From positions 1 to 40,897 of the forward strand of contig JACPPP010000110.1 of assembly GCA_016190935.1 (NCBI GenBank): DNA of 40,897 nt, written 5' to 3'. Position numbers and translations under genes: made by a program. Under the pieces are notes generated by a model. The model had not been told where the DNA came from. It saw only the letters and a program-made list of their open reading frames with translations, and did no database searches. The DNA comes from Armatimonadota bacterium (GTDB lineage: Bacteria > Armatimonadota > UBA5829 > DTLH01). This document shows, one piece after another, positions 5,162-39,912 of the stretch. Each line of letters begins with the position of its first letter. Position 1 is the stretch's first letter.

Positions 5162-6235
5162 CTACCGCGATTCGTGTTCGTGGCGATGGTGAATGTCCGG
5201 TGCGTGTGGGTGCGAGTGCCGATTGGCTTCGTGGCGATGCTGGTGCGAATGCGTCTCGTTCGGATTCTTCTCTTCTTCGTGCAAATGCGCGTGGTGCAGT
5301 CCGTCGTGTCGATGGCGGTGTTCGTGCTCCACAGTCAGATGTTCATGGACATGCGCGTGTTCTTCAGTGAGAAGCAGAGCAACTCCGACTACCATGAACG
5401 GGATCGATAGCACAAAGAAAGCGTTTGGCAGGGTCCGGAACAGGACGAAAGATAGCACAGCGCCCAAGAACGGAGCCGCCCCGAAATACGAACTCGTTCT
5501 TGCTGCCCCCAGGCTGCGCAAGGCAAGAATGAAGAGCATGATGCTGGCCCCATAGCTCACAAAGCCTAAGAGCATGGCCATCATCGCATTCCCCACGCTC
5601 GGAAGTGGCTGTCCGATCACTGTCGCCAACGATAGCGAAAACAGCCCCGCGCACAATCCCTTGATTGCCACAATCTGGAGCGGGTCCTTCGCCGAGATAT
5701 TGCGGGTCAGGTTGTTGTCTATGCCCCAAAAGATGCAGGCTGCTACTACCCCGACGGCTCCGGGCGAGATGCCCCATCTACCTGAGAGATCGCTGGAGAG
5801 CAATGCCCCTGCGAAAGTGACGCACGCTGCAGCCGCCCAGACGCGTCGCCCTACAGCCTCTCCGAGAAAACAAGCAGCTATGAGGACTGTCGCCACCCCC
5901 TCAAAGTTGAGCAAGAGGGAGGCAGTGGCGGCAGGTGTTGCCTTCAGGCTCAGCATCAGTGTGATAGGCGCAGCCACTCCGCCCGCAGCGACGGCTCCGA
6001 AAAGCCACGGCAGGTCACTTCTTGTCAGAGGCGCTTCTGTCTGTTCCCGCTGGTGCATGAAGCGCTGTGCCAACATGACCAGCACCGAGCCGATGCCACT
6101 TCCAAGATACAGCAAGCCCGCCAAGGCGAGCGGATGCACACTGTCGAGAAGCAACTTCGCAAACGGAGTGCTTGCGCCAAACAATACCGCAGCCATGATA
6201 GCCTGCAAGATTGGGTAGATGCGTGTTCGTTCCAT
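5162..6235 (-). CDS. EamA/DMT-family transporter with His-rich C-terminal tail
   Basis: 357 aa with ~10 hydrophobic segments (AAVLFGASTPFAKLLL, LLNFEGVATVLIAACFLGE) and a long HxH-rich C-terminus. Confidence 0.88.
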   Translation of the reverse strand: MERTRIYPILQAIMAAVLFGASTPFAKLLLDSVHPLALAGLLYLGSGIGSVLVMLAQRFMHQREQTEAPLTRSDLPWLFGAVAAGGVAAPITLMLSLKATPAATASLLLNFEGVATVLIAACFLGEAVGRRVWAAAACVTFAGALLSSDLSGRWGISPGAVGVVAACIFWGIDNNLTRNISAKDPLQIVAIKGLCAGLFSLSLATVIGQPLPSVGNAMMAMLLGFVSYGASIMLFILALRSLGAARTSSYFGAAPFLGAVLSFVLFRTLPNAFFVLSIPFMVVGVALLLTEEHAHVHEHLTVEHEHRHRHDGLHHAHLHEEEKNPNETHSHQHRHEANRHSHPHAPDIHHRHEHESR

Positions 6236-6805: not shown

Positions 6806-8191
6806 TCATCTATCACTGGGCATCCTTTCGTCGTATGCAGTCCTGGTCTCGCCAAGAACCGAGAGCAAGGAGTGCAGGCCACCTGTCTGCATCCGCACGT
6901 CAAGGCCGTCTTCGTTTACTGATATGCTCTCGACCAGGGCACCCACGATCATTCGCTGTTCAGCGGGGTAAAGCTCGTTCCAGATGGGATCGAACTGCTG
7001 GAGAGCATCGGTTACTTCCCATCGGGTAACGGCTGCCGAGTCGAGATCACAGGATGCGAGATATGTCTGAGCTATCATCTCCGGCGACTTGATGATCGAG
7101 CGGATCTGGTCTACCACAGCCTTCTCGATATCACCGGCGGGCAGAAGCCTCACTGGGCATGAGGTATAGCCGTTCTTGCCTGCCTTAACGCACAGGTAGT
7201 ACCGGTACGTCCGACCGCCCTTCCGGGTGTACGTGCTCGTCATGGCACACTCACAGTGTCCGCAGCGAATCACCCCTTTGAGGAGTGACGGCACCTTCTC
7301 ATGGGCAACCTGCTCTCTTGGCGGATTCGACTTCAGCATCGTCTGCACTCTGTCCCAGAGCTTGCGCGAGACTATGGCTTTATGCTCGCCTGGGTAGACT
7401 TTTTCCTTGTGTGCTATCTCGCCGACGTATGTCCGATTGTTCAGCAGTCGGTAGATATGCGATGCGTTCCAAGGCTTCCCCGGCCGAGTCGCGCCTTTGC
7501 GGGTGGTCCACGACTTGGTGGTTATTCCGAGTCCGTTCAGTTCCTTCGCGATTCCCAGTCCTGACCCGGTCTCTGCATGCCGCCTGAATATCCGGAGGAC
7601 GGTCTTTGCCTCCTCTTCGTTCACGATTAGCTTGTGGGTCAGCGGATCGGGATCGTACCCCAAGAGCGGTGTGCCGCCGGTATACTTACCTTTCTTCTTT
7701 GCGCCAGCGATCTTGTCGCGCACCCGTTCGGCGATGATGGCTCTCTCGAACTCGGCAAAGCTCATCAGAATGTTCAGCGTGAGTTTCCCAATGGCAGTTG
7801 TTGTCGAGAAGTTCTGGGTGATGCTCACAAAGGAGACGTCACGAGCCTCGAATAGCTCCATTAACTTCGCAAAGTCGAGCAGGGAGCGCGAGAGCCTGTC
7901 TACTTTGTATGTAACAACCACATCTATCTTGCTGGATCGAATGTCGTCGAGCATTCGCTGGAGGGCGGGACGGTCGGCGTTAGCGCCGGTGAAACCGCCA
8001 TCCGAGTAGACATCAGACAAGAGTGTCCAGCCCTCATGTCGCTGGCTCGCTACATATGCCTCACATGCCTCACGTTGGGCATCAAGGCTGTCGAACTCCA
8101 TGTCGAGGCCGTCTTCGGTGGATTTCCTGCAGTACACGGCGCACCGAAGCGTCTGCTGCGCAGTGGCAGGGGCTGTTGGAGCAGTCATCAT
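6806..8191 (-). CDS. Large serine recombinase (prophage integrase candidate)
   Basis: 461 aa; resolvase domain (AVYCRKSTEDGLDMEFDSLDAQREACEAYV; YKVDRLSRSLLDFAKLMELFE), recombinase and zinc-ribbon segments. Confidence 0.94.
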   Translation of the reverse strand: MMTAPTAPATAQQTLRCAVYCRKSTEDGLDMEFDSLDAQREACEAYVASQRHEGWTLLSDVYSDGGFTGANADRPALQRMLDDIRSSKIDVVVTYKVDRLSRSLLDFAKLMELFEARDVSFVSITQNFSTTTAIGKLTLNILMSFAEFERAIIAERVRDKIAGAKKKGKYTGGTPLLGYDPDPLTHKLIVNEEEAKTVLRIFRRHAETGSGLGIAKELNGLGITTKSWTTRKGATRPGKPWNASHIYRLLNNRTYVGEIAHKEKVYPGEHKAIVSRKLWDRVQTMLKSNPPREQVAHEKVPSLLKGVIRCGHCECAMTSTYTRKGGRTYRYYLCVKAGKNGYTSCPVRLLPAGDIEKAVVDQIRSIIKSPEMIAQTYLASCDLDSAAVTRWEVTDALQQFDPIWNELYPAEQRMIVGALVESISVNEDGLDVRMQTGGLHSLLSVLGETRTAYDERMPSDR

Positions 8192-8691
8192 TTGCTTCTA
8201 TTCCTTGCGTCGATGCCGAAGAACGTGCGTCCGTTCCAATGGCAGCCGGTGATGGCCTTGGTTGCAGCGGTCAATGATCGATATCGCTTGCCCTGGTATT
8301 CGACCCCTCCAGACACAACGATCACCTCGTAGCGCGCTCCCTTCCATTCCCGGATGAGCTTTGTTCCGATAATGGGCATGTCGTCAGTAGCGCGTCTGCG
8401 CCTGCCGCTCTTCGTCTCAACTCTGATTCCGGTCTCATCATAGCCGTGCTCGATCAATAACTGCCGCAATCGGTCTCTGACAGTTTCCGGCAAGCCCCCG
8501 AAGGTGAACTCCTGGATGCGGTACGCAAGCCTGTTAATGATGAATGTGCGGTTGTAGGTTGGCGGCTCCGAACCAAACATCGTCATGTATAGAGCCTTCA
8601 GATCGTCGTGGCTCAGGCTGTGAAGGTTTGCCATCTGCTGTTGTACTAGGTCCGCCACGATACCTCCTCGATAACCGTTCCTCGTGACCAT
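8188..8691 (-). CDS. DUF2924-like protein
   Basis: 167 aa; R-x-FIINRLAYRIQE and C-terminal GTKLIREWKGARYEVIVVSGGVEYQGKRYRSLTAATKAITG; overlaps the recombinase start. Confidence 0.82.
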   Translation of the reverse strand: MVTRNGYRGGIVADLVQQQMANLHSLSHDDLKALYMTMFGSEPPTYNRTFIINRLAYRIQEFTFGGLPETVRDRLRQLLIEHGYDETGIRVETKSGRRRRATDDMPIIGTKLIREWKGARYEVIVVSGGVEYQGKRYRSLTAATKAITGCHWNGRTFFGIDARNRSK

Positions 8692-8752: not shown

Positions 8753-9169
8753 CTATTTCCGAACAGCTTTTGCTGATGCCGCCGCGCGCATCTGGGCGAG
8801 CGTCTTGCCCTTGGTCCACTGGGCGTGCGGGCGATCCTTGAAGGTCTTCCAGCTTCCGCCCCATTCGAGGCCGCACTGCTGGGCGATCTTCCCGAACACA
8901 TCCCACGGGCCGTTCCAGGTAACCTTGCCGTTGATAACAAAGGCGTAGTCGGCTGCGAGACCGAAGTTGTGCCAGGAGTACCCGCCGCGCGCGTTGGTCA
9001 CGATGCTCCCGGGCGCGGTGCGGCCCTTGGCGTATAGCTGGTTCTGGCTCACGATGGACCTGTAGCCCCAAGTCAGAACGACCTTGATGCCATGGTCGGC
9101 AAGCTTCTTCTCGAAGAGGTTGAGCTTCTTGGCGAACTCGGGGTCAAGCCCGACTCTCGACGCGCTCAT
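8753..9169 (-). CDS. Peptidase M15-family endolysin
   Basis: 138 aa; GYRSIVSQNQLYAKGR, SWHNFGLAADYAFV and PHAQW match phage L-alanyl-D-glutamate endopeptidases. Confidence 0.88.
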   Translation of the reverse strand: MSASRVGLDPEFAKKLNLFEKKLADHGIKVVLTWGYRSIVSQNQLYAKGRTAPGSIVTNARGGYSWHNFGLAADYAFVINGKVTWNGPWDVFGKIAQQCGLEWGGSWKTFKDRPHAQWTKGKTLAQMRAAASAKAVRK

Positions 9170-9375
9170 CGGCTCTCTCCCTTCGGAAGCGATTTGGCGC
9201 TATGAACGCTCTTGTCAGCGAAAACATCAAGTCCAGAGTTCGCAAGCGTGCGGCCTTTATTCATCTGGTTCATCTCGCGTTTCCTCCTGCGCAGTATTCC
9301 GGCGGCAAGAATCCCCGCCACCTCAGCCATTCTGTCATCAAAGGTCAGCCGGTTCGGATAGCAGTCTGTAGGCAT
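9166..9375 (-). CDS. Small prophage protein of unknown function
   Basis: RBS AGGAGG before ATG at 9375; RLTFDDRMAEVAGILAAGILRRRKRE. The longer ORF start (9447) would include the regulatory motif. Confidence 0.55.
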   Translation of the reverse strand: MPTDCYPNRLTFDDRMAEVAGILAAGILRRRKREMNQMNKGRTLANSGLDVFADKSVHSAKSLPKGESR

Positions 9376-9415
9376 GAACAACCTCCTGGGGCTTCGTAAG
9401 AGACTGAGCAGCCTC

Positions 9416-9456
9416 CAGTTGATATTTACTGGCGGGGATTCCAGCATGCCGGGAAT
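9416..9456 (-). promoter_or_regulatory. Phage regulatory motif copy C (upstream of lysis genes)
   Basis: Minus strand: ATTCCCGGC-N12-CCGCCAGTAAATATCAACTG, identical to copy A at both conserved blocks, 40 nt from the ATG at 9375. Confidence 0.7.
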
Positions 9457-10044
9457 CTACACGTACTCGTCCAACCCGTGTTCCAGGAACAGGAAAGCGA
9501 TCCGACGTCGAAGCTCGTCGATCTTGTGCCTGGAGACCCCGTCCTCGCGGGCGATATCGACAATCGTGCGCTCCTGCAGTCGCACGCACAGGTTCTGCAG
9601 ATCGGCGGGAAGAAGGGATACCGCGCATTGCACATCGATGCGCATCTCCAGAATGTCGAACGCTCGGCGGCTGATGCGACCCGTGGCCATCAGATACCCC
9701 TCGGCGTCGATGGCTTCCCCGCGCGACACCCTGTCACCCGTCTCGGTCTCGATTGTCTCGTCGAGGGAGCAGTCGTGCTGTCGGAAGTCGAACTGACTGG
9801 TGAGCCTCGCGCTGACCATGGTTCGGATCTTGTTGTCGAGCACGGTGTTGATGAACGTCTTGAGCGTTCCTTTTCGGGGATTGTGCTTGGGAAGTTGCTG
9901 GCGCAGGTGAAGCGACAGGTCCTGTTCGATGTCTTCTTGATCGCTTCTTGTGTAGCCCGCCTGACCTATCAGGCGGCGTGTCTTGTAGCGGATGAGGTTG
10001 GTGGCATAGTCGTTGAGCCCCTCAAATGGATTGGTGTGATGCAT
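9457..10044 (-). CDS. ECF-like phage sigma factor
   Basis: 195 aa; region-2-like N-terminus (DQEDIEQDLSLHLRQQL...GTLKTFINTVLDNKI) and region-4-like C-terminus (LPADLQNLCVRLQERTIVDIAREDGVSRHKIDELRRRI). Confidence 0.75.
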   Translation of the reverse strand: MHHTNPFEGLNDYATNLIRYKTRRLIGQAGYTRSDQEDIEQDLSLHLRQQLPKHNPRKGTLKTFINTVLDNKIRTMVSARLTSQFDFRQHDCSLDETIETETGDRVSRGEAIDAEGYLMATGRISRRAFDILEMRIDVQCAVSLLPADLQNLCVRLQERTIVDIAREDGVSRHKIDELRRRIAFLFLEHGLDEYV

Positions 10045-10243
10045 TTCGCCTCCTCGGTCGGTTCAGCTCTCGAACCTCCCGGGGAGGACTGCAGACCTTC
10101 GCGGATCACCGGTTGGGTTGCAGGCTCACGTGAGATGCTCTCGCCGAACCTTTCAACCGGGAATCTCGAAATTTCGCCGATGTAGATGGGGAGCAACGGC
10201 CAAATGCACCGTTGAGAGGGGTGTAGAGGATAGTACCAAGATG

Positions 10244-10285
10244 CAAAAAGGGCAGGAAAAAATCCGTAAGAATTTCTTCCTGCCC
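10244..10285 (-). terminator. Rho-independent terminator
   Basis: Minus strand GGGCAGGAAGAAAT-TCTTACGG-ATTTTTTCCTGCCC (14-bp stem with one G.U) then CTTTTTG-type T tract. Confidence 0.7.
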
Positions 10286-10316
10286 TCGTCTGGGGTCAGC
10301 GAAATTTCGCTGGAGG

Positions 10317-11369
10317 CTATTCAGGCTCTATGTGGAAGCGGGCCCGCCAACCCTTTGTCTCTTTCACATAGAAGAACGGATCACCCGGAATCTTGAAGAA
10401 CACGCGGAGGTCCTTTGCGAGATTCTCCCTTCGCTTCTGGATGACTCGGTCCGCCGTCGGTCTGCTCCAGTCGAAGTCACCGTGACCCTTGGCGAACTCC
10501 CGAAGAAGGTTCCATTGCTCAGTGGGATCGCCGTTCTTCTTGTTGGCCATGCCCATTTGGGAGCAGTTAAAGACTCCGGTTTCCGACTTGACCTTGACTG
10601 ACACCTTATCTCCGTAAATGAAGCGGATTTCAAGATCGGACCACTGTGCGCCTGATGGTGTATTGAACCTGCGCACTCCATCTCCGGACCCCGCTGTGGA
10701 AACAACTGATGAATGGAATCTGGTCAGCGCGTCCCCGACAGTCGGATTACTGGTAGGCTTTCCGTCGCTGAGAATCATGATATCTGGAAGCGTAAGGAAT
10801 AGAGCCTCGTGGTCATCAAGTATTGATCTACAGGAGGGAGTGCAGAACTGTGCAGTTGGGGATATGAGGATGAAGGGTCCCGGCTGTCGGGCGGCGATTG
10901 TGCTGACTACGTCGTGGAAGTCTTCTTGTCTGAACTGTATCGTCATGAATACCGGAAAGACAGAACCCGCCAACGGCACATCTAACCCAAGTTGCGTGGT
11001 CTTCCGCAAATCCTGGAGCGCCTCAGCGTTCATGTCGAGGGAAAGCAATTCGCCGATTTTCGAGTGCAGTTTCCATCGGTCGAGTTCGTAGACGACCAAG
11101 TCCTGGGTGGCCGGATAGACCGTATCGCACATCGGAGGCTCGCATCGGCAAACCGCTGCGATGCGATCATCCGCCCTGTAGACCACCTCGTGGAAGCAGT
11201 TGCACGATCCTGTCGGACAAGGTATGGATGTGGCCGGAGTCTGCCGAGGCTTCAAGAAGACCCTTGCCATGTCGAGATCGTCTCCTGACTTGAGCCGCCA
11301 TTCCGCCTCGACTGCTGCGAGACCAGGAATCGATTCACAAGCAGACCAGAAGCTACGGTTCGTCCTCAT
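10317..11369 (-). CDS. Uncharacterised protein with Cys-rich N-terminal region and winged-helix-like C-terminus
   Basis: 350 aa; CPTGSCNCFHEVV...AVCRCEPPMCDTV, then C-terminal WNLLREFAKGHGDFDW...RRENLAKDLRVFFKIPGDPFFYVKETKGWRARF. Start overlaps the upstream gene's stop. Confidence 0.6.
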   Translation of the reverse strand: MRTNRSFWSACESIPGLAAVEAEWRLKSGDDLDMARVFLKPRQTPATSIPCPTGSCNCFHEVVYRADDRIAAVCRCEPPMCDTVYPATQDLVVYELDRWKLHSKIGELLSLDMNAEALQDLRKTTQLGLDVPLAGSVFPVFMTIQFRQEDFHDVVSTIAARQPGPFILISPTAQFCTPSCRSILDDHEALFLTLPDIMILSDGKPTSNPTVGDALTRFHSSVVSTAGSGDGVRRFNTPSGAQWSDLEIRFIYGDKVSVKVKSETGVFNCSQMGMANKKNGDPTEQWNLLREFAKGHGDFDWSRPTADRVIQKRRENLAKDLRVFFKIPGDPFFYVKETKGWRARFHIEPE

Positions 11370-12531
11370 CTTCCTTACCTTCAGGAGTGATGATGAACTC
11401 CCTCTTCTTCAACCATGCCTCGACCAACTCGCCATCGTCATCGCGTGAGAACTGCGCTACATTCGACGGTCGAATGCTGACTGTTCTCGGGTTCTTCGCG
11501 TCCTCGAACTTGACATGGAAGCCGGCCTTGAGAATGGGAACCCCCGATGGGATCTTGCGTTCCTTATCAGCAAGCATAGCGAAGATATCGTCAGCCTTCC
11601 ATATCTCGATCTCCTTGTAAGGTCCTCCCCAGAAGAACTGGAGTTCCTTGAGCTTTATCCATTCGATGCCTTCGATGTCGGAGCAAACCAGCGAATCAGC
11701 GCCGCTATCTCGAAGAGGCTTGAGAGTGTACTTCCCGTCACCCGGAAAGAAGTCTTCGTTCCCAAACAAGTGGAGACCCAACATCCTCTTGTAGAGGTCT
11801 ACTTCACCCCTTGTTCCTGCATTGATGCCGATCTCACCGGTGGCGGGCTGATAGATGAGTACGTCATGCTTCCCTGGGCGGTAGTACACGCAGCCTGGTT
11901 CACCGTCCACCATGCTGCCTTCCCGCTTGCACGGTTCGCCGTGGCGTACCAGAAACCACATGCCGTCTTCCCGGACGTAGTGGAACACCCTGCTGCCGCG
12001 CCCACGATTGTGTTCCACGAACCAGTTGTCTAGGTCGGTTTCGAGTGCGCGGATCACGTCTTCACTCGGAGGTGCGAGATCGGTATTCTCATCATCCTTG
12101 GCCTGGAAGTACTGAAACGTGCGCGCTCTGGTCAGCAACTGCTCCGAGTGCTTGCTCTCAAGAAGTCGCGGGTTCTGAAAGTAAACCTGGATTGCGACGT
12201 CTGTAGGCGTGGGATCGGGACGGCCGTCTATGACTATCCCCTCGACATCGGCCTCTCGCAAGAGCTCGTCCATCGCCTCAGGTGTGGACATCTCATTCAC
12301 CAGATGGAGTACCTCCACGAGATCGCTCGGGACGTGGTCGTCGGGAGTTATCAAGATAGCGGCAAGCGCGTCGTAGTCGAAGCCGTCGGCCTCCGTCTCG
12401 GGCGACGGTATCGTAAAGCCTCTGTTGGAAAAGTAGTGAGCGTGCGGGTACAGGAAACGAGTCAGGTTTTGGACTGACACGGCTTTCAGTGTGTCAGGCT
12501 GCGAGAAACGTCTGAGATTGAATGTGGGCAT
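11353..12531 (-). CDS. Uncharacterised conserved-looking protein, partner of 10317-11369
   Basis: About 392 aa from likely start MPTFNLRRFSQPDTLKAV; 17-nt overlap with the downstream gene implies a two-gene operon. Confidence 0.65.
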   Translation of the reverse strand: MPTFNLRRFSQPDTLKAVSVQNLTRFLYPHAHYFSNRGFTIPSPETEADGFDYDALAAILITPDDHVPSDLVEVLHLVNEMSTPEAMDELLREADVEGIVIDGRPDPTPTDVAIQVYFQNPRLLESKHSEQLLTRARTFQYFQAKDDENTDLAPPSEDVIRALETDLDNWFVEHNRGRGSRVFHYVREDGMWFLVRHGEPCKREGSMVDGEPGCVYYRPGKHDVLIYQPATGEIGINAGTRGEVDLYKRMLGLHLFGNEDFFPGDGKYTLKPLRDSGADSLVCSDIEGIEWIKLKELQFFWGGPYKEIEIWKADDIFAMLADKERKIPSGVPILKAGFHVKFEDAKNPRTVSIRPSNVAQFSRDDDGELVEAWLKKREFIITPEGKEDEDEP

Positions 12532-12580
12532 GCTGCTTTCCTTTCTTGTTTCGATTCCTCTCGGAAGCGATATCGACCTT

Positions 12581-13243
12581 TCAGTCAGCGCCCCGGACAG
12601 CCACGACCTTCCCCACAATTCTCAGGTCGTCGTCTGGACCTATGGGCATCGGCTTGTATTTCGGATTCTCCGGCCGGAGTTCAATCCGGTCGTCCGTGAT
12701 ATAGAGCCTCTTTACTGTCGCCTCGTCCTCAAGCAGCGCCACGACTATGTCGCCACTCTCGGACACAGGCTGTTGGCGGACAATCAGCGTGTCTCCCTCA
12801 TTAATGCCCGCGCCTTTCATGCTGTCGCCTTGCACAGCAAGAGCGAAGAACCGACCGCCTGACACCACGCTGCTGTCCACCAAGACCTCACCAATAACAT
12901 TCTCGTCCGCCAAGATCGGTAGTCCTGCGGCTACCCTGCCGATCACCGGCACGGAGACAAGGCCCAAAACCGGGCTGACAGGTTCCCGGACGATTGCCAG
13001 TCCCCTGGCTTTGCCCGGATCTCTCTTCAGATAGCCCTTGCGAACGAGCTGGCTGATCTGGTCGTGAGCGCTCGCGTTCGTGATGCCCAGCAACTCGCCA
13101 AGCTCGGCCACGGTCGGCGGAAAGCCGTGCTGGTCAACAAACCTCTGAATTGCCCTGAGCGTTCTCAACTGCGTGTCGCTTATCTCCGCAGTCGGCTTGC
13201 GCCCAGGCTTGAGTCTTTCACTTGAGCTGTTCTTGGGGTCCAT
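12581..13243 (-). CDS. lexA: LexA-type autocleaving repressor
   Basis: 220 aa; LexA N-terminal wHTH (QHGFPPTVAELGELLGITNASAHDQISQLVRKGYL), AG cleavage site (GRVAAGLPI), catalytic GDSM and ATVKRL Lys. Confidence 0.92.
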   Translation of the reverse strand: MDPKNSSSERLKPGRKPTAEISDTQLRTLRAIQRFVDQHGFPPTVAELGELLGITNASAHDQISQLVRKGYLKRDPGKARGLAIVREPVSPVLGLVSVPVIGRVAAGLPILADENVIGEVLVDSSVVSGGRFFALAVQGDSMKGAGINEGDTLIVRQQPVSESGDIVVALLEDEATVKRLYITDDRIELRPENPKYKPMPIGPDDDLRIVGKVVAVRGAD

Positions 13244-13304: not shown

Positions 13305-13333
13305 ATTATATCACCTAATGGCTGTCTGGTCAA
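13305..13333 (-). promoter_or_regulatory. Sigma70-type promoter for the lexA-like gene
   Basis: Minus strand TTGACC - 17 nt - TATAAT, 62 nt upstream of the ATG. Confidence 0.65.
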
Positions 13334-13379: not shown

Positions 13380-13420
13380 ATTCCCGGCAACCACCCCCAA
13401 CCGCCAGTAAATATCAACTG
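13380..13420 (+). promoter_or_regulatory. Phage regulatory motif copy A (upstream of early/replication module)
   Basis: ATTCCCGGC-N12-CCGCCAGTAAATATCAACTG, 65 nt from the start of 13486. Confidence 0.7.
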
Positions 13421-13485: not shown

Positions 13486-13800
13486 TTGATACGAACGGTA
13501 TACAAGTTCACATTCGACGACAGCGTAGCGATGGACGACGTCGAGCGAATACTCGCATTGTCCGCTATTCCCGTGGAGTCGATCCACGGTGAGTCTGCGA
13601 TGTTGGTCGACGGCAGATTTGCCGTGAATAAGAGGCGTCGCACCTGCCTGATAGACGCGGAGTCTCAGCTCGGAAACGACCTCGCGAGAGTGTTCACAGG
13701 ATTCCTGAACGCCAACGCCGGTGGCAGCTTCCGAGTCGATTTCGGGGAGACCGGCGAGCGGCTCGGCGATGTGCTCGATCTGTATGGAGCATTCGCATGA
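13486..13800 (+). CDS. Phage early protein of unknown function
   Basis: TTG start after GGAGG; 104 aa; overlaps the next gene's ATG; first gene of the rightward operon. Confidence 0.6.
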   Translation: MIRTVYKFTFDDSVAMDDVERILALSAIPVESIHGESAMLVDGRFAVNKRRRTCLIDAESQLGNDLARVFTGFLNANAGGSFRVDFGETGERLGDVLDLYGAFA

Positions 13801-14825
13801 ACGAGCCGATGCTCACCACCTACTCATTCTGGAACTCGTTCCGCAACTGCCGGAAAGCCTGCGAGTGGAGGTATCTGAGAGAACTGGTCCCCATCGGTCG
13901 GGACCAGGCCCTCTCATTCGGAACGCTCATCCACACGTGCCTTGAGATGTGGCACGGCGGTGACGGCCTGGATTCCGTGCTCGACTTCCTCGACAGATCA
14001 CTGCCGAACCGGGCGCAGGACGAATCGCGGAAGTCCGACTGGCACTTGGCCAGAGCAATGATGACCGGCTATGCCGCACGGTACGCAACTGAGGATTTCG
14101 ATATCGTCGCTCTTGAGAAAACGTTCGAGGGCAAGATCATCAATCCCGCTACCGGAGCATGTTCCCGCAGCTTGACCATGGCCGGAAAGGTAGACGGCAT
14201 AGTGCGGATGCGGGCAACTGGTGAGCACTACATCCTCGAGCACAAGACGGCCTCGCAAGTGGACGCCGACTATCTGGAACGCCTATGGACTGATCTCCAG
14301 ATCACGCTGTATGCGCGCTACATCGAGCAGACGCTCGGTATTCGCATCGCTGGCGTCATCTACAATGTGCTCGTCAAGGCCAAGCTCCAGCAGGCCAAGG
14401 GCGAGACCGAAGCCGAGTTCGAATCCCGCCGCGCCGACCTGCTGTCCAAATCCAAGACCGGCAAGTCTGCCGCCACGCGCAAGTTGCCGGAATCGGATGA
14501 GGCATTTCAAAACCGGCTCGCAGCCAAGTACGCGGAGCCGGATATGTTCTGTCGAGAAGCTCTCTATATCTCGCGCGACCAGTTCGACGCGATGAAGAGC
14601 GACCTCTGGGAGCTTACCCAGCAGTTCCTCGACTGCAGACGGCGCGACGCGTTCTGCCGGAACACATCCTACTGCTTCGCCAACCATCGGACGTGCGCAT
14701 ACTTCCCGCTCTGTCGTTCAAACGGCAGCGAGAACGTGATCGCCAACTTCTACGAGACGAGACCGCCACACGAGGAGCTGCGGTCGGACTCTGAGATATC
14801 AACCGCCCACAAGGAGGCATTCTGA
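13797..14825 (+). CDS. PD-(D/E)XK (RecB/Cas4-like) nuclease
   Basis: 342 aa; GTLIHTCLE, YILEHKTAS (D/ExK) and C-terminal Cys cluster CRRRDAFCRNTSYCFANHRTCAYFPLC. Confidence 0.83.
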   Translation: MNEPMLTTYSFWNSFRNCRKACEWRYLRELVPIGRDQALSFGTLIHTCLEMWHGGDGLDSVLDFLDRSLPNRAQDESRKSDWHLARAMMTGYAARYATEDFDIVALEKTFEGKIINPATGACSRSLTMAGKVDGIVRMRATGEHYILEHKTASQVDADYLERLWTDLQITLYARYIEQTLGIRIAGVIYNVLVKAKLQQAKGETEAEFESRRADLLSKSKTGKSAATRKLPESDEAFQNRLAAKYAEPDMFCREALYISRDQFDAMKSDLWELTQQFLDCRRRDAFCRNTSYCFANHRTCAYFPLCRSNGSENVIANFYETRPPHEELRSDSEISTAHKEAF

Positions 14826-15559
14826 TGCTACTTCCAACCCAGAAGACACCGCCCAAGCCAAACCTGGCGGACCTCACGGTGCTGGTCTACGGCGCAACAA
14901 AGATAGGCAAATCGACCTGGTGCTCGAACGCGGACCGTGCGGTGTTCCTCTCGACCGAGCCTGGCTTGAACTCCCTGGAGGTATTCCAGGTTCCGATCCG
15001 GTCGTGGGACGAGCTGCTCGCGGCCTGCGGAGAAATAGCCGAGGGTAATCACGAGTTCAAGACCGTGATACTCGACACCGTCGACAACGCGTATCGAATG
15101 TGCGCCGAGCACGTCTGCCGCAAGTTCAAGGTCGAGCACGAGTCCGATCTCGGCTACGGCAAGGGCTTCGCTCTCACCAACAACGAGTTCCAGCGCGTCC
15201 TGAACAAGCTCGCTTTCATGCCCTGCGGCTTGTATCTCATCTCCCATTCCCAGGAGGTGGAGATAGAGACCCGCACCGGCAAGTACAACAAAACCGTGCC
15301 GACACTGCCGGAGAAGGCCAGAAAGATCGTTCTCGGCTTAGTCGACATGGTCCTCTACTGCGACATCGAAACGGCGGCAGGTACCGACAACAAGATGGCG
15401 GCTCGCCGAGTCATGCGCACTAAGCCCAGTCTTAACTATGAGGCCGGTGACCGTACCGGCAAACTGCCCGAAGTGATCGATCTCGACTACGCCAAGTTCA
15501 CCGAGGCGTTCAACGCCACGGCTGACACCAAGAAAACACCCAAGGAGGCAACCCGATGA
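14825..15559 (+). CDS. Sak4-like RecA-fold ATPase
   Basis: 244 aa; Walker A VLVYGATKIGKSTW, Walker B FKTVILDTVDN, LISHSQE. Confidence 0.78.
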   Translation: MLLPTQKTPPKPNLADLTVLVYGATKIGKSTWCSNADRAVFLSTEPGLNSLEVFQVPIRSWDELLAACGEIAEGNHEFKTVILDTVDNAYRMCAEHVCRKFKVEHESDLGYGKGFALTNNEFQRVLNKLAFMPCGLYLISHSQEVEIETRTGKYNKTVPTLPEKARKIVLGLVDMVLYCDIETAAGTDNKMAARRVMRTKPSLNYEAGDRTGKLPEVIDLDYAKFTEAFNATADTKKTPKEATR

Positions 15560-16020
15560 ACCAGGATTACGACAGCACCGGCACGAGCGATCTTGATCTC
15601 GCTCAGTTTGACGACGACTTCGCCGAAGCGCCCGTCGAGGAGCGGGAGTTCGAGGACATACCGGACGGCAAGTATCAGGTGAACGTCGAGAAGGTCGAAC
15701 TCACCCGCGCCCAGTCTTCCGGCAACCCGATGTTGAAGTGGACGCTCAAGATTCTCGGCCCACGGTTCGCAGGACGTCTGCTCTGGCGCAACAGCGTGAT
15801 GGCTTCAAAGGAGAACCTAAAGTGGCTCAAGACCGACCTGCACACCTGCGGGCTGGACGTCGAGAAGCTCTCCGACCTCCCGGCCAGACTCGGCGATCTG
15901 CTCGATGTGAAGCTTGAGGTAACAAAGCGCACCAAGGGCGAGAGCGAGAACATCTACTTCAACCGGCGGATAGTGGTTGAGGACTTGGCTCCCGAGGACG
16001 ACTCGCTCGCCCCGTTCTAA
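15556..16020 (+). CDS. DUF669-like (SSB-associated) protein
   Basis: 154 aa; PDGKYQVNVEKVELTRAQSSGNPMLKWTLKILG pattern next to the Sak4-like gene. Confidence 0.75.
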   Translation: MNQDYDSTGTSDLDLAQFDDDFAEAPVEEREFEDIPDGKYQVNVEKVELTRAQSSGNPMLKWTLKILGPRFAGRLLWRNSVMASKENLKWLKTDLHTCGLDVEKLSDLPARLGDLLDVKLEVTKRTKGESENIYFNRRIVVEDLAPEDDSLAPF

Positions 16021-16550
16021 TGGCGGAACTCATCACAGTCGTAGTCGATACGCGCGAACAGGAGCCGTATTCGTTTCCTCCTCGGCGGTTCGTGATCGAG
16101 CGGAGTGCTCTACCGGCGGGGGACTATTCCCTCGCCGGTCTGGAGCACGTAGTCGCCGTTGAGCGGAAGACGGCCGAGGACTTCGTCCACACGATCATCC
16201 GCGACAGGGACCGGTTCCGCAAAGAGTTGCTAAGGCTCGCTGAATACGACCGCGCCTGTGTGGTAGTGGAAGCCGGACTGGATGATCTCCTCAGCGGAGC
16301 CTATCGTTCCGGCGCGCATCCGAGTTCCGTCGTGGGAGCCGCGCTCTCGATCATCGTCGACTACGGCGTCCCTGTCTATTTCTGCTCCGACCGGCAGTGC
16401 GCACGCCGGTTCGTCGAAGAGTACTTGCTGCGCTACCATCGGAGGGCTCAGGATTCATGCCAACAGCAACAACAGAACACACCCGAATCCGGGGGGAGGT
16501 CGAGCGAGTATTCTTCTCATCCGCCAACTTCTCTGCCGGGCGGTTCATAA
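16020..16550 (+). CDS. ERCC4-domain nuclease
   Basis: 176 aa; VVDTREQEPYSFP...ERSALPAGDYSLAGLEHVVAVERKTAEDFV is the ERCC4 nuclease core. Confidence 0.87.
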   Translation: MAELITVVVDTREQEPYSFPPRRFVIERSALPAGDYSLAGLEHVVAVERKTAEDFVHTIIRDRDRFRKELLRLAEYDRACVVVEAGLDDLLSGAYRSGAHPSSVVGAALSIIVDYGVPVYFCSDRQCARRFVEEYLLRYHRRAQDSCQQQQQNTPESGGRSSEYSSHPPTSLPGGS

Positions 16551-18649
16551 CAGAGCGCGGTGACCGGATACAGTTCGCCGGAAACGTGGTGGTTCAGGAG
16601 AACCAGCCGCTCGTGCTTCACGGCAAGTTCGTTCGGCACCCCAAGTATGGCTTCCAGTTCGAGGTCACGAGCATGGAGTTCGACCGGCAGATGGACGCCC
16701 GCGGGCTCGCCAACTATCTTGCGAACAATCCTGACATCAAGGGTATCGGCCCGGCAAAAGCAAGGATCATCGCTGAGCGGTTCGGCTCGGAGTTCGAGCA
16801 GCACCTAATCGATGAACCGGAGAAGATCGCGGACGCCGCGAAGGTGCCGATCTCGCTTATCGAGTCGCTGCGAGATCACTGGCTTGAGACGAGCAGTGTG
16901 AACCAGGCGATGACGGCGCTTGCCGCATACGGGCTCACACATCATCAGGTAACGAGGCTGGTGAAGAAGCTCGGCAACAATGCAGTCGGCATCATCGAAC
17001 GCGATCCCTATGTCATCGTCGGAGAGATCGACGGCTTTGGCTTCAAGCGGATCGACAAGATCGCTCGGCAGGTGGGCATCGCCAAGGACGAGCCGAGCCG
17101 TGTTCGCGCTGGAATTGTGTTCTGCGTCGATGATGCCCTGGATCAGGGCGACTGCTGGGTGGAGTACGAAGACCTGCTCGACCGGGCGAACGAGCTTCTT
17201 GTGATGGATTGCCTTGACAGCCGAGAGCAGATCGAGAAGCACCTGGACAATCTGATCGATGAGAAGTCCCTGACCTGCTACCCCGCAGACTGCCGGTTCC
17301 TCGTGGCGAAGCCGTTCATCCGGAGCACGGAAGAGGACCTGGCGCGTGTGTTCGCTGGCGGTGTAAAGCCCAGCCCGTGCCTTGGTGACAAGTCCGATCT
17401 GCAGACTGAGGTGAAACGTGTCGCGCCGCGACTCAATCCCAAGCAGCTTGACGCGGCCGTTAGTGCCGCCGCACACTCCATATCACTCATCTCCGGTGGT
17501 GCTGGATCCGGCAAGACATTCACCGTTGCCGCCATGACTCGGCTCTGTGACGAGCATGACCTGCGCGTAGTGCTCTGCGCGCCGACCGGCAAGGCCGCCA
17601 AACGAATGGAAGAGGCCACCGGGCGGGAAGCGTCAACGATCCATAGGCTGCTTGGTTTCAACGGCAAGACCTATGCGCGCGACTCGGAGAATCCTATCTC
17701 TGCCGACATGCTCATTGTCGACGAGGTTTCGATGGTCGATGTGGTTCTAGCCTGGCATCTGTTCCAGGCAATCGATCTTGACCGCACGGCCGTTGTTCTC
17801 GTTGGCGACCACAATCAACTTCCGCCTGTCGGCCCGGGCAACATCCTTCGAGACCTGATCGAGTCCAGAGTACTGCCGACAACAGTCCTCGACGATATAG
17901 TCAGACAGGCCGGTATCCTCAAAGAGAACAGCATCGCGATTCTCAAGGGCGAAGTGCCAAAGACTCCGCAGCGCGATACCTCCGCGCGGGGCGCATGGTA
18001 CGTCGCTGATCAGCATACCGATGCGGAACGAGTCCAGCGGTTCGTTCTCGACCTGTTCGAGCACACTCTCAACGAGAAGCTGGGCTTTGACATCCTGCGA
18101 GACGTACAGCTTCTGACTCCAACGCATAAGGGCCCGCTCGGCACAGTCGAACTGAACACTAAGCTCCAGCGCCTCATCCAGCGGAAGCTCTGGAACTACG
18201 ACGCGCCGCCCGTTCAGACAGGCAGACGTCCTAAGCTGCTCGTCAATGACAAGGTCATTCAGACCCGGAACAACTACGACCTCGGAGTCATGAACGGCGC
18301 GATGGGTATTGTCCGCAGCGTTGGTCTCGACGGGTCGCTAACCATCGAGTTCGAGGACAAGACGGTCCACATCGAGGCCGGGGTACCGCAGCGCAGTGAC
18401 ATCCAGCTTGCCTACGCGCTCACCATTCACAAGTCCCAGGGGTCGGAGTTTCCCTGTTCGGTGGTCATCGCACACAAGTCGCACTCGTTTATGCACCATC
18501 GGAACCTGCTCTACACCGGAGTGACCCGAGCCTCTCAGACCGCCATCATCGTCGGCGACCACTGGGGAATCGCCAACTGCGCCAAGCGCGTGCAGGTGGA
18601 TGCGCGGAAGACGTTCCTATCACTCCTGTTGAACAGGGGTGCCCAATGA
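16457..18649 (+). CDS. RecD/RecD2-like SF1 helicase
   Basis: Start MPTATTEHTRIRGEVERVFF; HhH region, Walker A SGGAGSGKTFT, VDEVSMVD, LTIHKSQGSEF, TGVTRASQ. Confidence 0.92.
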   Translation: MPTATTEHTRIRGEVERVFFSSANFSAGRFITERGDRIQFAGNVVVQENQPLVLHGKFVRHPKYGFQFEVTSMEFDRQMDARGLANYLANNPDIKGIGPAKARIIAERFGSEFEQHLIDEPEKIADAAKVPISLIESLRDHWLETSSVNQAMTALAAYGLTHHQVTRLVKKLGNNAVGIIERDPYVIVGEIDGFGFKRIDKIARQVGIAKDEPSRVRAGIVFCVDDALDQGDCWVEYEDLLDRANELLVMDCLDSREQIEKHLDNLIDEKSLTCYPADCRFLVAKPFIRSTEEDLARVFAGGVKPSPCLGDKSDLQTEVKRVAPRLNPKQLDAAVSAAAHSISLISGGAGSGKTFTVAAMTRLCDEHDLRVVLCAPTGKAAKRMEEATGREASTIHRLLGFNGKTYARDSENPISADMLIVDEVSMVDVVLAWHLFQAIDLDRTAVVLVGDHNQLPPVGPGNILRDLIESRVLPTTVLDDIVRQAGILKENSIAILKGEVPKTPQRDTSARGAWYVADQHTDAERVQRFVLDLFEHTLNEKLGFDILRDVQLLTPTHKGPLGTVELNTKLQRLIQRKLWNYDAPPVQTGRRPKLLVNDKVIQTRNNYDLGVMNGAMGIVRSVGLDGSLTIEFEDKTVHIEAGVPQRSDIQLAYALTIHKSQGSEFPCSVVIAHKSHSFMHHRNLLYTGVTRASQTAIIVGDHWGIANCAKRVQVDARKTFLSLLLNRGAQ

Positions 18650-19209
18650 ACACGATCCAGGCAATTGAGACTCAGTACAACGGCTACAGATTCCGCAGCA
18701 GGCTGGAAGCACGATGGGCGGTGTTCTTTGACAGCCTCGGCGTCCCCTACCTCTACGAGCCTGAGGGGTTCGAGCTTGGCGACGGAGTCAGGTACCTCCC
18801 GGATTTCTGGCTGCCTGATCAGCATTGTTGGGTGGAGATAAAGCCTCCCGGCGAGTGGGACTATCACCTTGAATGCGATCTCCTCGCCGAGCGGTCCGAC
18901 TGCCAACTGTTACTCTACATAACGGGTAACCCCTGGCCAGGGGAGTATGGAATCGTGCCATACCCGGCCACAAGCGAACTACACAGTAGTTCGGCTTGGG
19001 TCTTTGCCCTGGGGCGCAAGAGTGATCGCGAGCTGTGGATATGCAACGACGATGTCGGCGCGGAATGCCTGAACCCCATCGCTCTTGAGGACGAGAAATA
19101 CCCTTCGGCAAATGCTCCACGGCTCATCGGCGCGTACAGGGCGGCCCGTCGGGCGCGCTTTGAGTTCGGTGAGCGGCGGCCGAGATACCGGGGGTGGCCA
19201 AATGGATAG
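18646..19209 (+). CDS. PD-(D/E)XK-like endonuclease
   Basis: 187 aa; YRFRSRLEARWAVFFDSLGVPYLYEPE...YLPDFWLPDQHCWVEIKP. Confidence 0.68.
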   Translation: MNTIQAIETQYNGYRFRSRLEARWAVFFDSLGVPYLYEPEGFELGDGVRYLPDFWLPDQHCWVEIKPPGEWDYHLECDLLAERSDCQLLLYITGNPWPGEYGIVPYPATSELHSSSAWVFALGRKSDRELWICNDDVGAECLNPIALEDEKYPSANAPRLIGAYRAARRARFEFGERRPRYRGWPNG

Positions 19210-21829
19210 GAACACTCCGGAGGCCATGGTCTACGATCTGATACCGGACGAACTCAAAGCACTTCGGCAGTGGGTCTGCTACCGCATCGAGGATCGCAAT
19301 GGCATTCCCACCAAGATACCATACCGAACGGACAAAGTCGGACGCGGTAACGCCAAGACCAATGATCCGGCGACCTGGCATACTTTCGATGAGGTACTGG
19401 AAGCGGCCGCCAAGCCCGCAAACAGGTTCGACGGCATAGGGTTCGTACTATCTGAGTCCGACCCTTATGTGTTCGTGGATCTCGACCATGTGGTGAACGA
19501 CGGTGAGATGGAGCCCTGGGCGCTTGAGATGATCGGGCGCATTGGTTCCTACACGGAGTTCAGCCGGTCGGGAACGGGCATCCACATCGTCACGCGAGCA
19601 AAGAAACCCGGACCCAGGTGCCGGACACACAGCAGGCCGCAGTTCGAGATATACGACGACGTGCGGCTCGTCGTGTTTACGGGCAGGCTGTGGCCCGGCT
19701 CGCCAACCGAGATCAACGGCGCTCAGGAGGCAGTGAGCGAGATTTACTTCGACGTGTTCGGTGAGAACCCCCAGAACGTCCCGCCGAAGGAGAGCACAAA
19801 AAACGTCCGGCCGGTCGGAAAGTCCGATCCGGCGCTCATCGAGGAAGCCTTGTCCGCGACCAACGGAGAGAAGTTTGGGCGGCTGTGGAACGGGAACATC
19901 GGGGAGTACAACGGCGATGCCAGCGCGGCGGACATGGCGCTCTGCTGCATGCTTGCGTACTGGACGGACAAAGACCCTGCCAGGATGGACAGGCTGTTCC
20001 GCGAGTCGGGACTGATGCGCGACAAGTGGGATGAATCGCGAGGCCCGAAAACATACGGACAGATCACGATTGACGCAGCCAACGGTATAGTCAAAGAGAC
20101 CTATGCCGACCACACAGGCAAACGGAAACGGCGCGCGAAGCGAGATGCCGGAGTAGCTAAGACGCAAACGCGCCCCGTTGAAGGTCTACCTGCCATCCGT
20201 GCCGACTGCCAGGACCTTCGCAGCGTGACAGGTCAGTGCTGGGAGGCCATCGCCAGTGCCAACAACCCTCCGAGGTATTTCCGGTATATCGGTCTTCCTT
20301 CCAGACTCGAAAAAGACGATGATGGGATGCTGGTCCCCAGGGAACTGACTCCCGACAGGCTGCGACACGAACTGGCTCGTGTGGCGAATTGGGTAAGCGG
20401 GGAGCAGGATGAATCGGCCAAGCCTCCAGTCGATGTCGTGAGGGACGTGCTGGCGACTCCCAATCCTCCGCTGCCGGTGCTGGCGCGTATCACGGACGTT
20501 CCTGTGTTCGCTCCGGATGGTTCGCTCTCAATGGCCGAGGGCTACCATGCCGCCGGGCAGACATATCGGATGTCGAGGGCCGGGCTGAAGATTCCCGACA
20601 TACCGTCTGCCCCATCGTCAGGCGAGGTCGATGCAGCGAAGAGCCTGATCCTCGATATGATCTCAGAGTTCCCGTTCGTGGATGAAGCCGACCGCGCGCA
20701 TGCCGTCGGACTCCTTCTTCTCCCATTCGTGCGAGACCTTATCGACGGGCCGACGCCCAACCATCTTGTCGAGGCTCCGCAGGCGGGCACGGGAAAAGGA
20801 CTGCTGGCCGATGTCCTGCTGACACCCGCCTGTGGCAAGCAGGTGTCGACTATTTCCGAGGCCAGGGACGATGACGAATGGCGAAAACGGATAACCGCGC
20901 AACTCCGCAGCGCGCGCACGGTGGTTCTCCTGGACAACGTCACGCGGCCGCTCAACTCCGGGGCACTGGCTTCCGCGCTTACGGCAACGGTCTGGGAGGA
21001 CCGGATACTGGGCAAGTCTGAGAACCTGCATATCCCCGTGCGCTGCGTCTGGGTGACGACTGCCAACAATCCCACCATGACAACGGAAATCGCCAGGCGA
21101 TGCATACGCATTCGGCTGGACGCAAAGGTGGACCGTCCGTGGTTTCGTGACGGGTTCAGGCAGAAGAAGCTTCGCGGTTGGGCGCTTGCTAACCGCGGCG
21201 AACTGGTGGGCGCTGCTCTTACGCTCGTCCAGGCATGGGTGTGCGCCGGTATGCCCGCCTCCGAGACCAAGCCGCTGGGTTCCTATGAACAATGGACCGC
21301 GATAGTCGGGGGGATACTGCAGCACGTGGGTGTACCCAGGTTCCTGTCGAACCTCCTTGAGTTCTACGAGCAGGCGGACATCGAGGGAACGATGTGGCGG
21401 CAACTGGTCGAGGCATGGTCGGAGAAGTTCGGTCAGGAGCGCGTGGGAGTGAACGACCTGTTTGACCTGGCTTTGGAACTGGACGTGTTCGACTTCGGCA
21501 AAGGCGGCGAGAGGTCGCAAAGGACTGCTTTTGGCCGACGGCTCAGTCGGCAGCGTGATCGTGTGATAGGCGAAAATAGGATAATCGCTGCGGGGAAATC
21601 CAAGCGCGCGAGTCAGTGGATGCTGGTTCCTACAAGCGATCTGTTTTCCGGGAGGGTGAACATAGAGAACATCGGTGAACATTCCCCCTCTTCCCCTCAT
21701 GCGCCAGCGCACACACATGCATGCGCACATGCATGTGTAGACGAGGGTGAGAATGTTCACTCAGGTTCACTATGTTCACCCGACGAGTCTGCTCCGGCTT
21801 CGTCCATGCCGGGCTATGAGGAGTTCTGA
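19202..21829 (+). CDS. PrimPol-like primase/helicase
   Basis: Start MDRNTPEAMVYDLIPDELKALRQWVCYR; AEP-like core (VFVDLDHVV; SRSGTGIHIV), C-terminal P-loop segment VEAPQAGTGKGLLADVLLTPA. Confidence 0.82.
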   Translation: MDRNTPEAMVYDLIPDELKALRQWVCYRIEDRNGIPTKIPYRTDKVGRGNAKTNDPATWHTFDEVLEAAAKPANRFDGIGFVLSESDPYVFVDLDHVVNDGEMEPWALEMIGRIGSYTEFSRSGTGIHIVTRAKKPGPRCRTHSRPQFEIYDDVRLVVFTGRLWPGSPTEINGAQEAVSEIYFDVFGENPQNVPPKESTKNVRPVGKSDPALIEEALSATNGEKFGRLWNGNIGEYNGDASAADMALCCMLAYWTDKDPARMDRLFRESGLMRDKWDESRGPKTYGQITIDAANGIVKETYADHTGKRKRRAKRDAGVAKTQTRPVEGLPAIRADCQDLRSVTGQCWEAIASANNPPRYFRYIGLPSRLEKDDDGMLVPRELTPDRLRHELARVANWVSGEQDESAKPPVDVVRDVLATPNPPLPVLARITDVPVFAPDGSLSMAEGYHAAGQTYRMSRAGLKIPDIPSAPSSGEVDAAKSLILDMISEFPFVDEADRAHAVGLLLLPFVRDLIDGPTPNHLVEAPQAGTGKGLLADVLLTPACGKQVSTISEARDDDEWRKRITAQLRSARTVVLLDNVTRPLNSGALASALTATVWEDRILGKSENLHIPVRCVWVTTANNPTMTTEIARRCIRIRLDAKVDRPWFRDGFRQKKLRGWALANRGELVGAALTLVQAWVCAGMPASETKPLGSYEQWTAIVGGILQHVGVPRFLSNLLEFYEQADIEGTMWRQLVEAWSEKFGQERVGVNDLFDLALELDVFDFGKGGERSQRTAFGRRLSRQRDRVIGENRIIAAGKSKRASQWMLVPTSDLFSGRVNIENIGEHSPSSPHAPAHTHACAHACVDEGENVHSGSLCSPDESAPASSMPGYEEF
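21654..21781. repeat. Long inverted repeat with iteron-like half sites and central hairpin (candidate replication origin)
   Basis: Arms 21654-21684 and 21751-21781 match 27/31 as inverted copies; central ACACATGCAT-GCGCAC-ATGCATGTGT hairpin. Confidence 0.6.
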
Positions 21830-22767
21830 TGGCGTACCTCGATTCACTGACAAGACACGCCCTCAGGGCGAGCATTCAGCCGGACGGCAAGATCAGGCTG
21901 GAGCCGGACTGGCTTATCACGGACGGCATCCGGCAGATAGTCCACGAGCACCGTGAGGAGCTTGTCCGGGAGATCACCGAGAACGCGGCATCTGGCGATC
22001 CGTCCGAGGAGACCGTCTCCGACTATCACCTTCTTTGGGTCGCGACGGACCTCGACTCGTTCGAGGAATACGATCCCCGATTCGGTTACGAGCTGAGCTG
22101 CGATCCCGTTTACCGGATGCTGGACGCTCCCTACTATGCCTGGTTGCGACACCGGATGGAGAACGCCCGGAAGTCTCACGGAGCGGGACGTCTAGACGAC
22201 TCGGCGTTCGAGGTTCTGAGAACCCGGTTCAACACCATCCATTCCTGGGCTGTCCGGCACATCGGCGAGGAGGCTCTTCGGCGAGCGATCAGGACCACGA
22301 ACGTGAAGTCCTATGTGCCGCCATCAGAGCAAACCTTCTCGGCTTACCGCAAGACCTGGGACGACGCCTGGAGTGCCTATCAGCGAAATCAGGCTGCATG
22401 CAACCGGTCTGCGGAACCATCTGATCAGGCGCGCAGGCTCCAGCATCTGCTCGATACCCAGGGATACGCTGGCATTCGGTCATCCATCATCGACGATGTC
22501 GTTGTCTTCGTCCGGGATGAGTCGGTGGTAGTCCCTCACAAGTGGACAACCAAGGTCCGGTTCACGCTGGACGAGTTGCGCCTGATGGTCGGCTCCTCCC
22601 CGGACGCTGTAAAACAGATCCACGAGGTCAAGCGGGTGTTCGGCGGAAAGGTCGTGCCCTCGGGAGATAATCCATTCGCGGTCAAGGGATCCGGGGGAAA
22701 CGTCATGCCGATACCTGCTGCCCAGCAGACTCTATTCCAGGCCGGGACAACAGCAAGCGCAATATAG
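21829..22767 (+). CDS. Phage protein of unknown function
   Basis: 312 aa ORF directly after the primase; N-terminal TubC_N-like look (LRASIQPDGKIRLEPDWLITDGIRQIVHEHREELV). Confidence 0.6.
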   Translation: MAYLDSLTRHALRASIQPDGKIRLEPDWLITDGIRQIVHEHREELVREITENAASGDPSEETVSDYHLLWVATDLDSFEEYDPRFGYELSCDPVYRMLDAPYYAWLRHRMENARKSHGAGRLDDSAFEVLRTRFNTIHSWAVRHIGEEALRRAIRTTNVKSYVPPSEQTFSAYRKTWDDAWSAYQRNQAACNRSAEPSDQARRLQHLLDTQGYAGIRSSIIDDVVVFVRDESVVVPHKWTTKVRFTLDELRLMVGSSPDAVKQIHEVKRVFGGKVVPSGDNPFAVKGSGGNVMPIPAAQQTLFQAGTTASAI

Positions 22768-35548: not shown

Positions 35549-35588
35549 ATTCCGGCACGCCGTGAATTCCGCCAGTAAATATCAACTG
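35549..35588 (+). promoter_or_regulatory. Phage regulatory motif copy B (upstream of the methylase/head module)
   Basis: ATTCCGGC-N12-CCGCCAGTAAATATCAACTG, 41 nt from the start of 35630. Confidence 0.7.
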
Positions 35589-35629
35589 GAGAGGTTCCCT
35601 GCCAATGGGAACTGCATGTGTCGGAGTGA

Positions 35630-39534: not shown

Positions 39535-39897
39535 ATGGCATTTCTGAACCCCAACCATCGAGGGCTGGCCTACGGCGACGGCTACATGCAGGGCGCGGGA
39601 TCGTGTGGCCAGTTCGTGAAGCTGGTCGGCAATGATCTCTTCGCCGTGAACACCGACTCGCAGGACAAGAGCTTCGGCGTGCTCATCAAGGACTACAAGG
39701 CAGGCGATATGCCCGGCATCTTCTGCATGGGCGGCGTCTACGAGACCGACGTCTACGAGGGCACAATCAACGCCGGTGATGATCTCAAGGTCTCCGCAAA
39801 TGGCAAGCTCACAGCGGGTGTCGAGGAGGGCGACGATGTGGTCGCCAGGGCTATCTCAGTATCGAGCGGGACGCTGAAGTTCCGCCTGCTCATCTAA
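39535..39897 (+). CDS. DUF2190-like capsid decoration protein
   Basis: 120 aa between protease/scaffold and major capsid; FGVLIKDYKAGD... INAGDDLKVSANGKLTAG pattern. Confidence 0.72.
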   Translation: MAFLNPNHRGLAYGDGYMQGAGSCGQFVKLVGNDLFAVNTDSQDKSFGVLIKDYKAGDMPGIFCMGGVYETDVYEGTINAGDDLKVSANGKLTAGVEEGDDVVARAISVSSGTLKFRLLI

Positions 39898-39912
39898 GGA
39901 CGGGAGGGACAA

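Follow-up and report, generated by a model that had tools for sequence, protein, structure and literature searches.

A candidate phage sigma factor and its putative cognate promoters in an Armatimonadota prophage and in related phages

A prophage gene that resembles a sigma factor and ends one base before a repeated promoter-like motif raises the question of whether its product recognizes that motif and which genes the pair would control. The stretch of DNA analyzed here (the window) is a whole contig (C46) of 40,897 bases from an Armatimonadota assembly of 3.84 Mb in 366 contigs. Host genes (aspS, hisS) occupy its left end, the prophage starts at a serine integrase gene (6806-8191), and the right contig edge cuts the prophage after the major capsid gene.

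The candidate sigma gene (9457-10044, minus strand) encodes 195 amino acids, with predicted region 2 helices at residues 12 to 83, a linker, and a region 4 helix-turn-helix at residues 128 to 190; its stop codon is the TAG at 9459-9457(-). The protein matched PHROG 1740 ("RNA polymerase sigma factor") at 1.2e-9, TIGR02937 (sigma70-ECF) at 1.3e-5 (24.9 bits, below the curated cutoff of 42.9), and Pfam Sigma70_r2 at 1.1e-3 (19.2 bits, below the cutoff of 24). In a 12-member family of such proteins, Sigma70_r2 was matched by 11 (best, 1.8e-8) and TIGR02937 by 10, and the family profile had an ECF RpoE as its best sequence match in the PDB; phmmer with the single sequence found no match in the PDB. 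The comparison with sigma-70 profiles that the earlier note on this DNA had proposed as a check thus came out in favor of a sigma identity. In an AlphaFold2 model (pLDDT, 78; pTM, 0.42), region 2 (12-83) forms three helices and region 4 (128-188) four, joined by a poorly ordered linker. The matches listed for this model by Foldseek/VIA-align were sigma factors or holoenzymes, and residues 128 to 195 superpose on region 4 of SigmaA (8cyf_B) with a Z score of 8.2 and 2.1 Å over 68 residues. Judged by the profile homology of region 2, the part expected to bind core and recognize the -10 element, and by the helix-turn-helix predicted in region 4, the protein is a sigma2-sigma4 member of the sigma-70 superfamily.

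Three promoter-like elements of the form CCGGCA-N18-TAAATATCAACTG occur in the window, at 9423-9452(-), 13384-13413(+), and 35552-35581(+). In copy C, the putative -35 block CCGGCA (9452-9447) is followed after an 18-nt spacer by the putative -10 block TAAATA (9428-9423); the same blocks lie at 13384-13389 and 13408-13413 in copy A and at 35552-35557 and 35576-35581 in copy B. Copy B is one C shorter, so CCGGCA was taken as the invariant upstream core. Rereading confirmed that the motif around copy C begins at 9456, on the same strand as the sigma open reading frame and directly after its end at 9457. The distance between the blocks, previously estimated at about 18 nt, is exactly 18 in all three copies, and none of them resembles the housekeeping hexamers TTGACA and TATAAT, as had also been remarked. 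The 20-mer CCGCCAGTAAATATCAACTG has exactly three occurrences in the window (9416-9435(-), 13401-13420(+), and 35569-35588(+)), and a 21-mer version with up to 3 mismatches still finds three window sites, versus 0 in 100 dinucleotide shuffles. At the same tolerance, the whole 3.84-Mb assembly holds no copies beyond these three.

Each copy stands ahead of a phage operon. Copy C precedes a minus-strand lysis/integrase operon, made up of a small protein (9166-9372, beginning MPTDCYP with AGGAGG upstream), an endolysin (8753-9169; PHROG 2649, 2e-33), a DUF2924 protein (8188-8691; Pfam PF11149, 2.5e-41), and the large serine recombinase, or integrase (6806-8191; Pfam Resolvase/Recombinase, PHROG 95). 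A longer open reading frame start for the small protein, at 9447, falls within copy C, and its homologues have the same start place in three other loci (L007, L008, and L057). Copy A precedes a plus-strand recombination-replication operon that opens with a conserved small protein (13486-13800; here the 13486 family) and continues (13797-22767) with an exonuclease, a Sak4-like protein, a RecD2 helicase, a primase/polymerase, and others. Copy B precedes, on the plus strand, a fused DNA methyltransferase of 1,297 aa (35630-39523; Pfam MethyltransfD12, PHROG 27806) and the capsid genes for a decoration/scaffold-like protein and the major head protein (39535-40776; PHROG 673 and 2522). By sequence comparison, the putative promoters appear to be confined to the phage, where they stand ahead of its operons.

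Two further features of the structural region were seen. The methyltransferase open reading frame consists of two methyltransferase halves with internal DNA repeats of 70 to 88% (D2, D11), and its homologous segments sit in separate pieces in a mosaic contig, G061. An AbiEii-like toxin gene (PF08843; 33478-35237), likely with an AbiEi-type partner, is inserted among the structural genes on the opposite strand.

A search with the exact-geometry pattern CCGRCA-N18-TANATA returned six places assembly-wide, versus five in a reversed control. Three of the six are the window copies; a fourth, which the earlier note had missed, lies on another contig (C47:24070-24099(-)), 30 nt upstream of a gene for a 444-aa phage tail protein (PHROG 52, 8e-41). 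The tail part of the prophage that is missing from the window is probably contig C47, and this tail gene then probably belongs to the same prophage. The two contigs do not overlap, so the link is one of homology only: viral contig 3300032163_001782 carries both a window-type site before a methyltransferase gene (94% identical) and a tail protein 90% identical to that of C47.

Scanning genome contigs with the single 195-aa protein found no relative; a profile of the family did, and recovered 80 viral and 41 genome sigma loci, whose host labels are given here as in the MAG titles; one of the loci (L116) is from a cultured isolate, Desulfosarcina cetonica. From the sigma 3' ends of 71 nonredundant homologues, a two-block motif was fitted. 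It took the form ctCCGACAct-N15-GTAgGTAtCcAgTaGG, with the consensus YCCGACA-N18-TAnnTA, and elements scoring above 8 were counted. By this measure, 57 of the 71 sigma genes carry the element at their 3' ends. The same score was reached by 2.8% of random regions from the same loci, by 4.3% of shuffles, and by none of the 71 regions preceding the sigma genes. The 15-nt gap is kept in nearly all of the sigma-adjacent elements, which mostly lie 0 to 10 nt past the stop codon. About 14 of the 71, most of them among the remotest homologues, have no such element near the sigma stop. Upstream of the sigma gene in the window itself (10045-10316), no site that might give positive feedback reached a score of 9. 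At locus L056, a pair of elements was seen ahead of the sigma gene itself (5166-5284), where they might close a positive feedback loop.

Because the model had been fitted on the same sites, whole clusters at 45% identity were left out in a retest, and 52 of the 71 homologues still had the element. Over 1.08 Mb, the left-out models gave 105 sites at scores of 13 or more, compared with 39 in the reversed sequence. Away from the sigma gene, 26 of 40 sites were intergenic (13.6% expected) and 19 of 40 stood before a gene in the same direction (4.9% expected); those inspected individually precede 13486-family operons, endolysin operons, terS, portal, or recD2. The strongest test, being out of sample, is that of the tail gene. 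With a matrix trained on sigma-adjacent sites only, the element was found upstream of 32/37 homologues of the C47 tail protein (loci not deduplicated), mostly 59 to 77 nt before the start codon.

The order seen in most relatives is sigma gene, element, and then an operon that starts with a 13486-family protein, and the gene for this protein mostly lies 30 to 130 nt downstream of a site. In the window lineage, the sigma gene is followed instead by the endolysin/integrase operon, and a site precedes both this operon and the 13486 operon; G004 has a separate endolysin operon with a site of its own. From these and other layouts, we conclude that the sites go with their target operons and not merely with the sigma gene. 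The sites are retained at their positions in close relatives (80 to 88%). In genomes of the same order, where the sigma proteins are 33 to 45% identical, most prophages have their own repeated element, mostly with the 18-nt spacer: CCGACA-N18-TACATATCAAG in G002 (four copies), CCGACA-N18-TAAATAACTAAG in G004 (three copies), and repeated elements of the TAAATATC and TATATATA types in G012 and G015, respectively. A single element of the TAAATGACC type was found in G011.

The motifs are therefore specific to lineages while their geometry is conserved, and the sites of one phage share a sequence type; on contig 3300027863_001757, for example, the sigma-adjacent and tail sites are both ATAGTAAATAACTAAGT. 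Mutual information over 54 sigma/element pairs was highest for residue 78, where the region 2.4 helix ends, and the base two upstream of the GTA of the -10 block. Glutamate at this residue goes with C in 19/20 cases and arginine with G in 23/26; the window sigma has S78, with C at that base. Two loci (L092 and L095) with glutamate and C lie beside a clade with arginine and G, so that the switch runs the expected way. Mapped on a maximum-likelihood tree inferred without column 78, the residue class changed at least 12 times and the base at least 11 times. Likelihood ratio statistics for correlated evolution were 36 (R/K versus G) and 34 (versus C/non-C), and residue 78 ranked first among 155 columns for that base (median, 6; 95th percentile, 14); since the background is inflated for several other bases, these values serve as a ranking, and nominal P values are not valid. 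Independent pairs on well-supported branches number only 3 to 4, nearly all concordant but not significant, as the sign test is underpowered. Mean mutual information showed no clear difference for region 4 with the -35 block or region 2 with the -10 block, and we therefore make claims for single positions only. The co-variation across homologous prophages that had been proposed as a second check is thus found at the level of lineage-specific motifs and of one residue-base pair, and the promoter sequence appears to co-vary with the sigma factor.

Such co-variation also bears on whether the phage protein uses these sites at all. The element might serve a host alternative sigma factor, or the housekeeping one aided by an activator, with the phage sigma acting elsewhere; the host genome has 20 Sigma70_r2 loci, and the -35 core of the relatives, CCGACA, matches TTGACA at 4/6 positions. 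Against this, the geometry is constant in phages from many host bins and yet the sequence differs among phages of one host order, the element type follows the phage sigma, and the full motif occurs in this assembly only in the prophage. We regard a host sigma as improbable, if somewhat less so than the other alternatives.

Slightly less probable still is an operator function, in which the LexA-like repressor or some other regulator of the phage would bind the element at the dyad CCAGT-N8-ACTGG. This dyad of 5 + 5 bases is perfect over the -10 region of copies C and B (9414-9456 and 35550-35590), and CCGGT-N8-ACCGG occupies the same region in Desulfobacterota-type phages (L035, L036, and L038), perfect dyads being confined to these two lineages. 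In copy A, however, the dyad is broken, and arm pairing across 54 sites averages 1.93 of 5, versus 1.83 in shuffles, 75/500 of which reach 1.93. With no co-variation of its arms, the dyad was rejected as a general feature of the element. What is conserved is instead two blocks oriented toward genes and separated by a fixed 18-nt spacer of free sequence, and the co-variation that ranks first involves sigma region 2. Least probable is a sigma-derived activator, one that binds the sites without working as a true sigma. Such a role has been suggested for certain late activators in Gram-positive phages and is compatible with window scores below the curated Sigma70_r2 and TIGR02937 cutoffs. Against it, region 2-like and region 4 domains are predicted in the right order, the hits of relatives reach 2e-8, and two blocks at -35/-10 spacing form the kind of site that a sigma factor would need.

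The reading we favor, with a probability of roughly 85%, is that of an alternative sigma factor, encoded by the phage, which would redirect host RNA polymerase to the lytic operons once repression is lifted. The comparative evidence thus supports the proposal of the earlier note that this sigma recognizes the three copies and coordinates lysis, replication, and head genes. Consisting of sigma2 and sigma4 only, it would join the host core RNA polymerase and recognize a two-block promoter with -35 CCGGCA, an 18-nt spacer, and an extended -10 CCAGTAAATATCAACTG; its targets would be the lysis/integrase, recombination-replication, methyltransferase-capsid, and, probably, tail operons. We infer core binding, promoter use, the -35/-10 assignment, and the start sites from the observed homology and predicted fold of the protein, the copies, geometry, position, and orientation of the element, and their conservation and co-variation in relatives. 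Before induction, a LexA-like repressor made from a host-type promoter may keep the prophage silent, with no sigma produced; on induction, the sigma would be made and the polymerase redirected to all lytic operons at once.

This putative order of events, from repressor to sigma, is drawn from a cassette (lexA-11353-10317-sigma) that recurs in relatives and from a candidate terminator within it. The repressor gene (12581-13243, minus strand; TIGR00498 lexA, 1.5e-51) comes first and is preceded by a canonical host-type promoter, TTGACC-N17-TATAAT, at 13305-13333(-). Since a scan for canonical promoters found one where shuffles predict 1.7, this call is based on its position and its 11/12 match. 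Between repressor and sigma lie two conserved proteins (10317-12585, minus strand) with homologues beside the sigma gene in many loci and no match in Pfam or PHROG. No anti-sigma was recognized next to the window sigma gene; one of these two proteins might be one. A cysteine cluster was seen in one of the two. The candidate terminator (10245-10285, minus strand), between the gene at 10317-11369 and the sigma gene, consists of GGGCAGGAA...TTCCTGCCC followed by TTTTT; its loop of 18 exceeds the length limit of the scanner, and it was read from the sequence and is absent from the scanner output.

Sigma factors and sites do not always match within one phage. G061 shares structural genes with the window (80 to 96%), and its sigma is only 42% identical; its own type of element is seen at three sites, those before terS and portal among them, and the window type at one, before the methyltransferase/capsid genes. 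Modules and their promoters appear to move together, and a window-type site kept beside a 42%-identical sigma suggests that this sigma tolerates both types or that the module was recently exchanged. In G002 (L024/L025), a site of the G004 type (CCCGACACTTCATGGATTACAGAAGTAAATAACTAAGTGG) and not of its own type lies before the sigma operon, about 1.3 kb upstream of the sigma end. As G002 and G004 belong to one genus, the sigma of one prophage might switch on another. Very similar sigma loci were also seen in L117, L118, L119, and L122, under bin labels that include Blastocatellia (L117), Myxococcota, Desulfomicrobiaceae, and Hydrogenedentota. Near-identical sites are shared among the bins called Desulfomicrobiaceae and Hydrogenedentota (L119, L122) and Blastocatellia (L117), which points to binning error or a very wide host range.

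Since the pairing of sigma and signal recurs in dozens of related viruses, it looks like a widespread on-switch for dormant viruses. A broader proposal, to which we give about even odds, is that an unrecognized phage-specific sigma2-sigma4 group acts as the master switch for lytic growth across a large family of temperate phages, mostly of uncultured phyla (Armatimonadota, Planctomycetota, Desulfobacterota, and others), with a promoter code per lineage, partly set by residue 78, that insulates or cross-triggers coresident prophages. For a wide range of prophages whose hosts have almost no cultured phages, this would provide a regulatory logic that can be tested and, through an adjacent promoter with fixed spacing, a rule for finding regulons from sequence. 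With the correspondence between residue 78 and one base, the way in which small sigma factors recognize promoters can be put to a direct test, and paired sigma/promoter sets could become orthogonal expression parts.

Phage sigma factors as such are already known; literature searches, with subscription papers mostly outside their reach, found no description of this sigma family or its promoter code, which appear to be undescribed in the literature searched. The earlier label of "ECF-like" holds for the domain layout, a sigma2-linker-sigma4 protein of about 195 aa without regions 1.1 and 3, like that of ECF (group IV) factors, but not for the rest: the protein falls short of the curated ECF cutoffs, and the consensus YCCGACA-N18-TAnnTA is unlike ECF promoters, which are of the GGAAC/CGTC type, with an AAC-containing -35 and a CGTC-like -10. 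Among 50,697 records, the only homologues from named phages are the sigma-70 domain proteins of Wolbachia phage WO (HQ906662, KX522565), of the same superfamily but far diverged (22 to 29% identity), with no clear copy of the element by eye after the sigma stop. SPO1 gp28 and gp34 and T4 gp55 are essential middle/late phage sigma factors (PMC9429907). The window sigma would resemble them as a phage-encoded factor that redirects host RNA polymerase to a set of phage-specific promoters, but SPO1 and T4 are virulent, the window sigma belongs to a temperate phage, and no sequence relation was detected. T4 late promoters have a -10-type element only, whereas the putative promoters in the window have both blocks. 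Closer in lifestyle is Xpf of PBSX, a defective prophage of a Firmicute, a sigma-like positive factor that turns on the late operon; both are sigma-like factors of temperate elements, and the candidate set in the window would extend beyond late genes to the replication and integrase operons.
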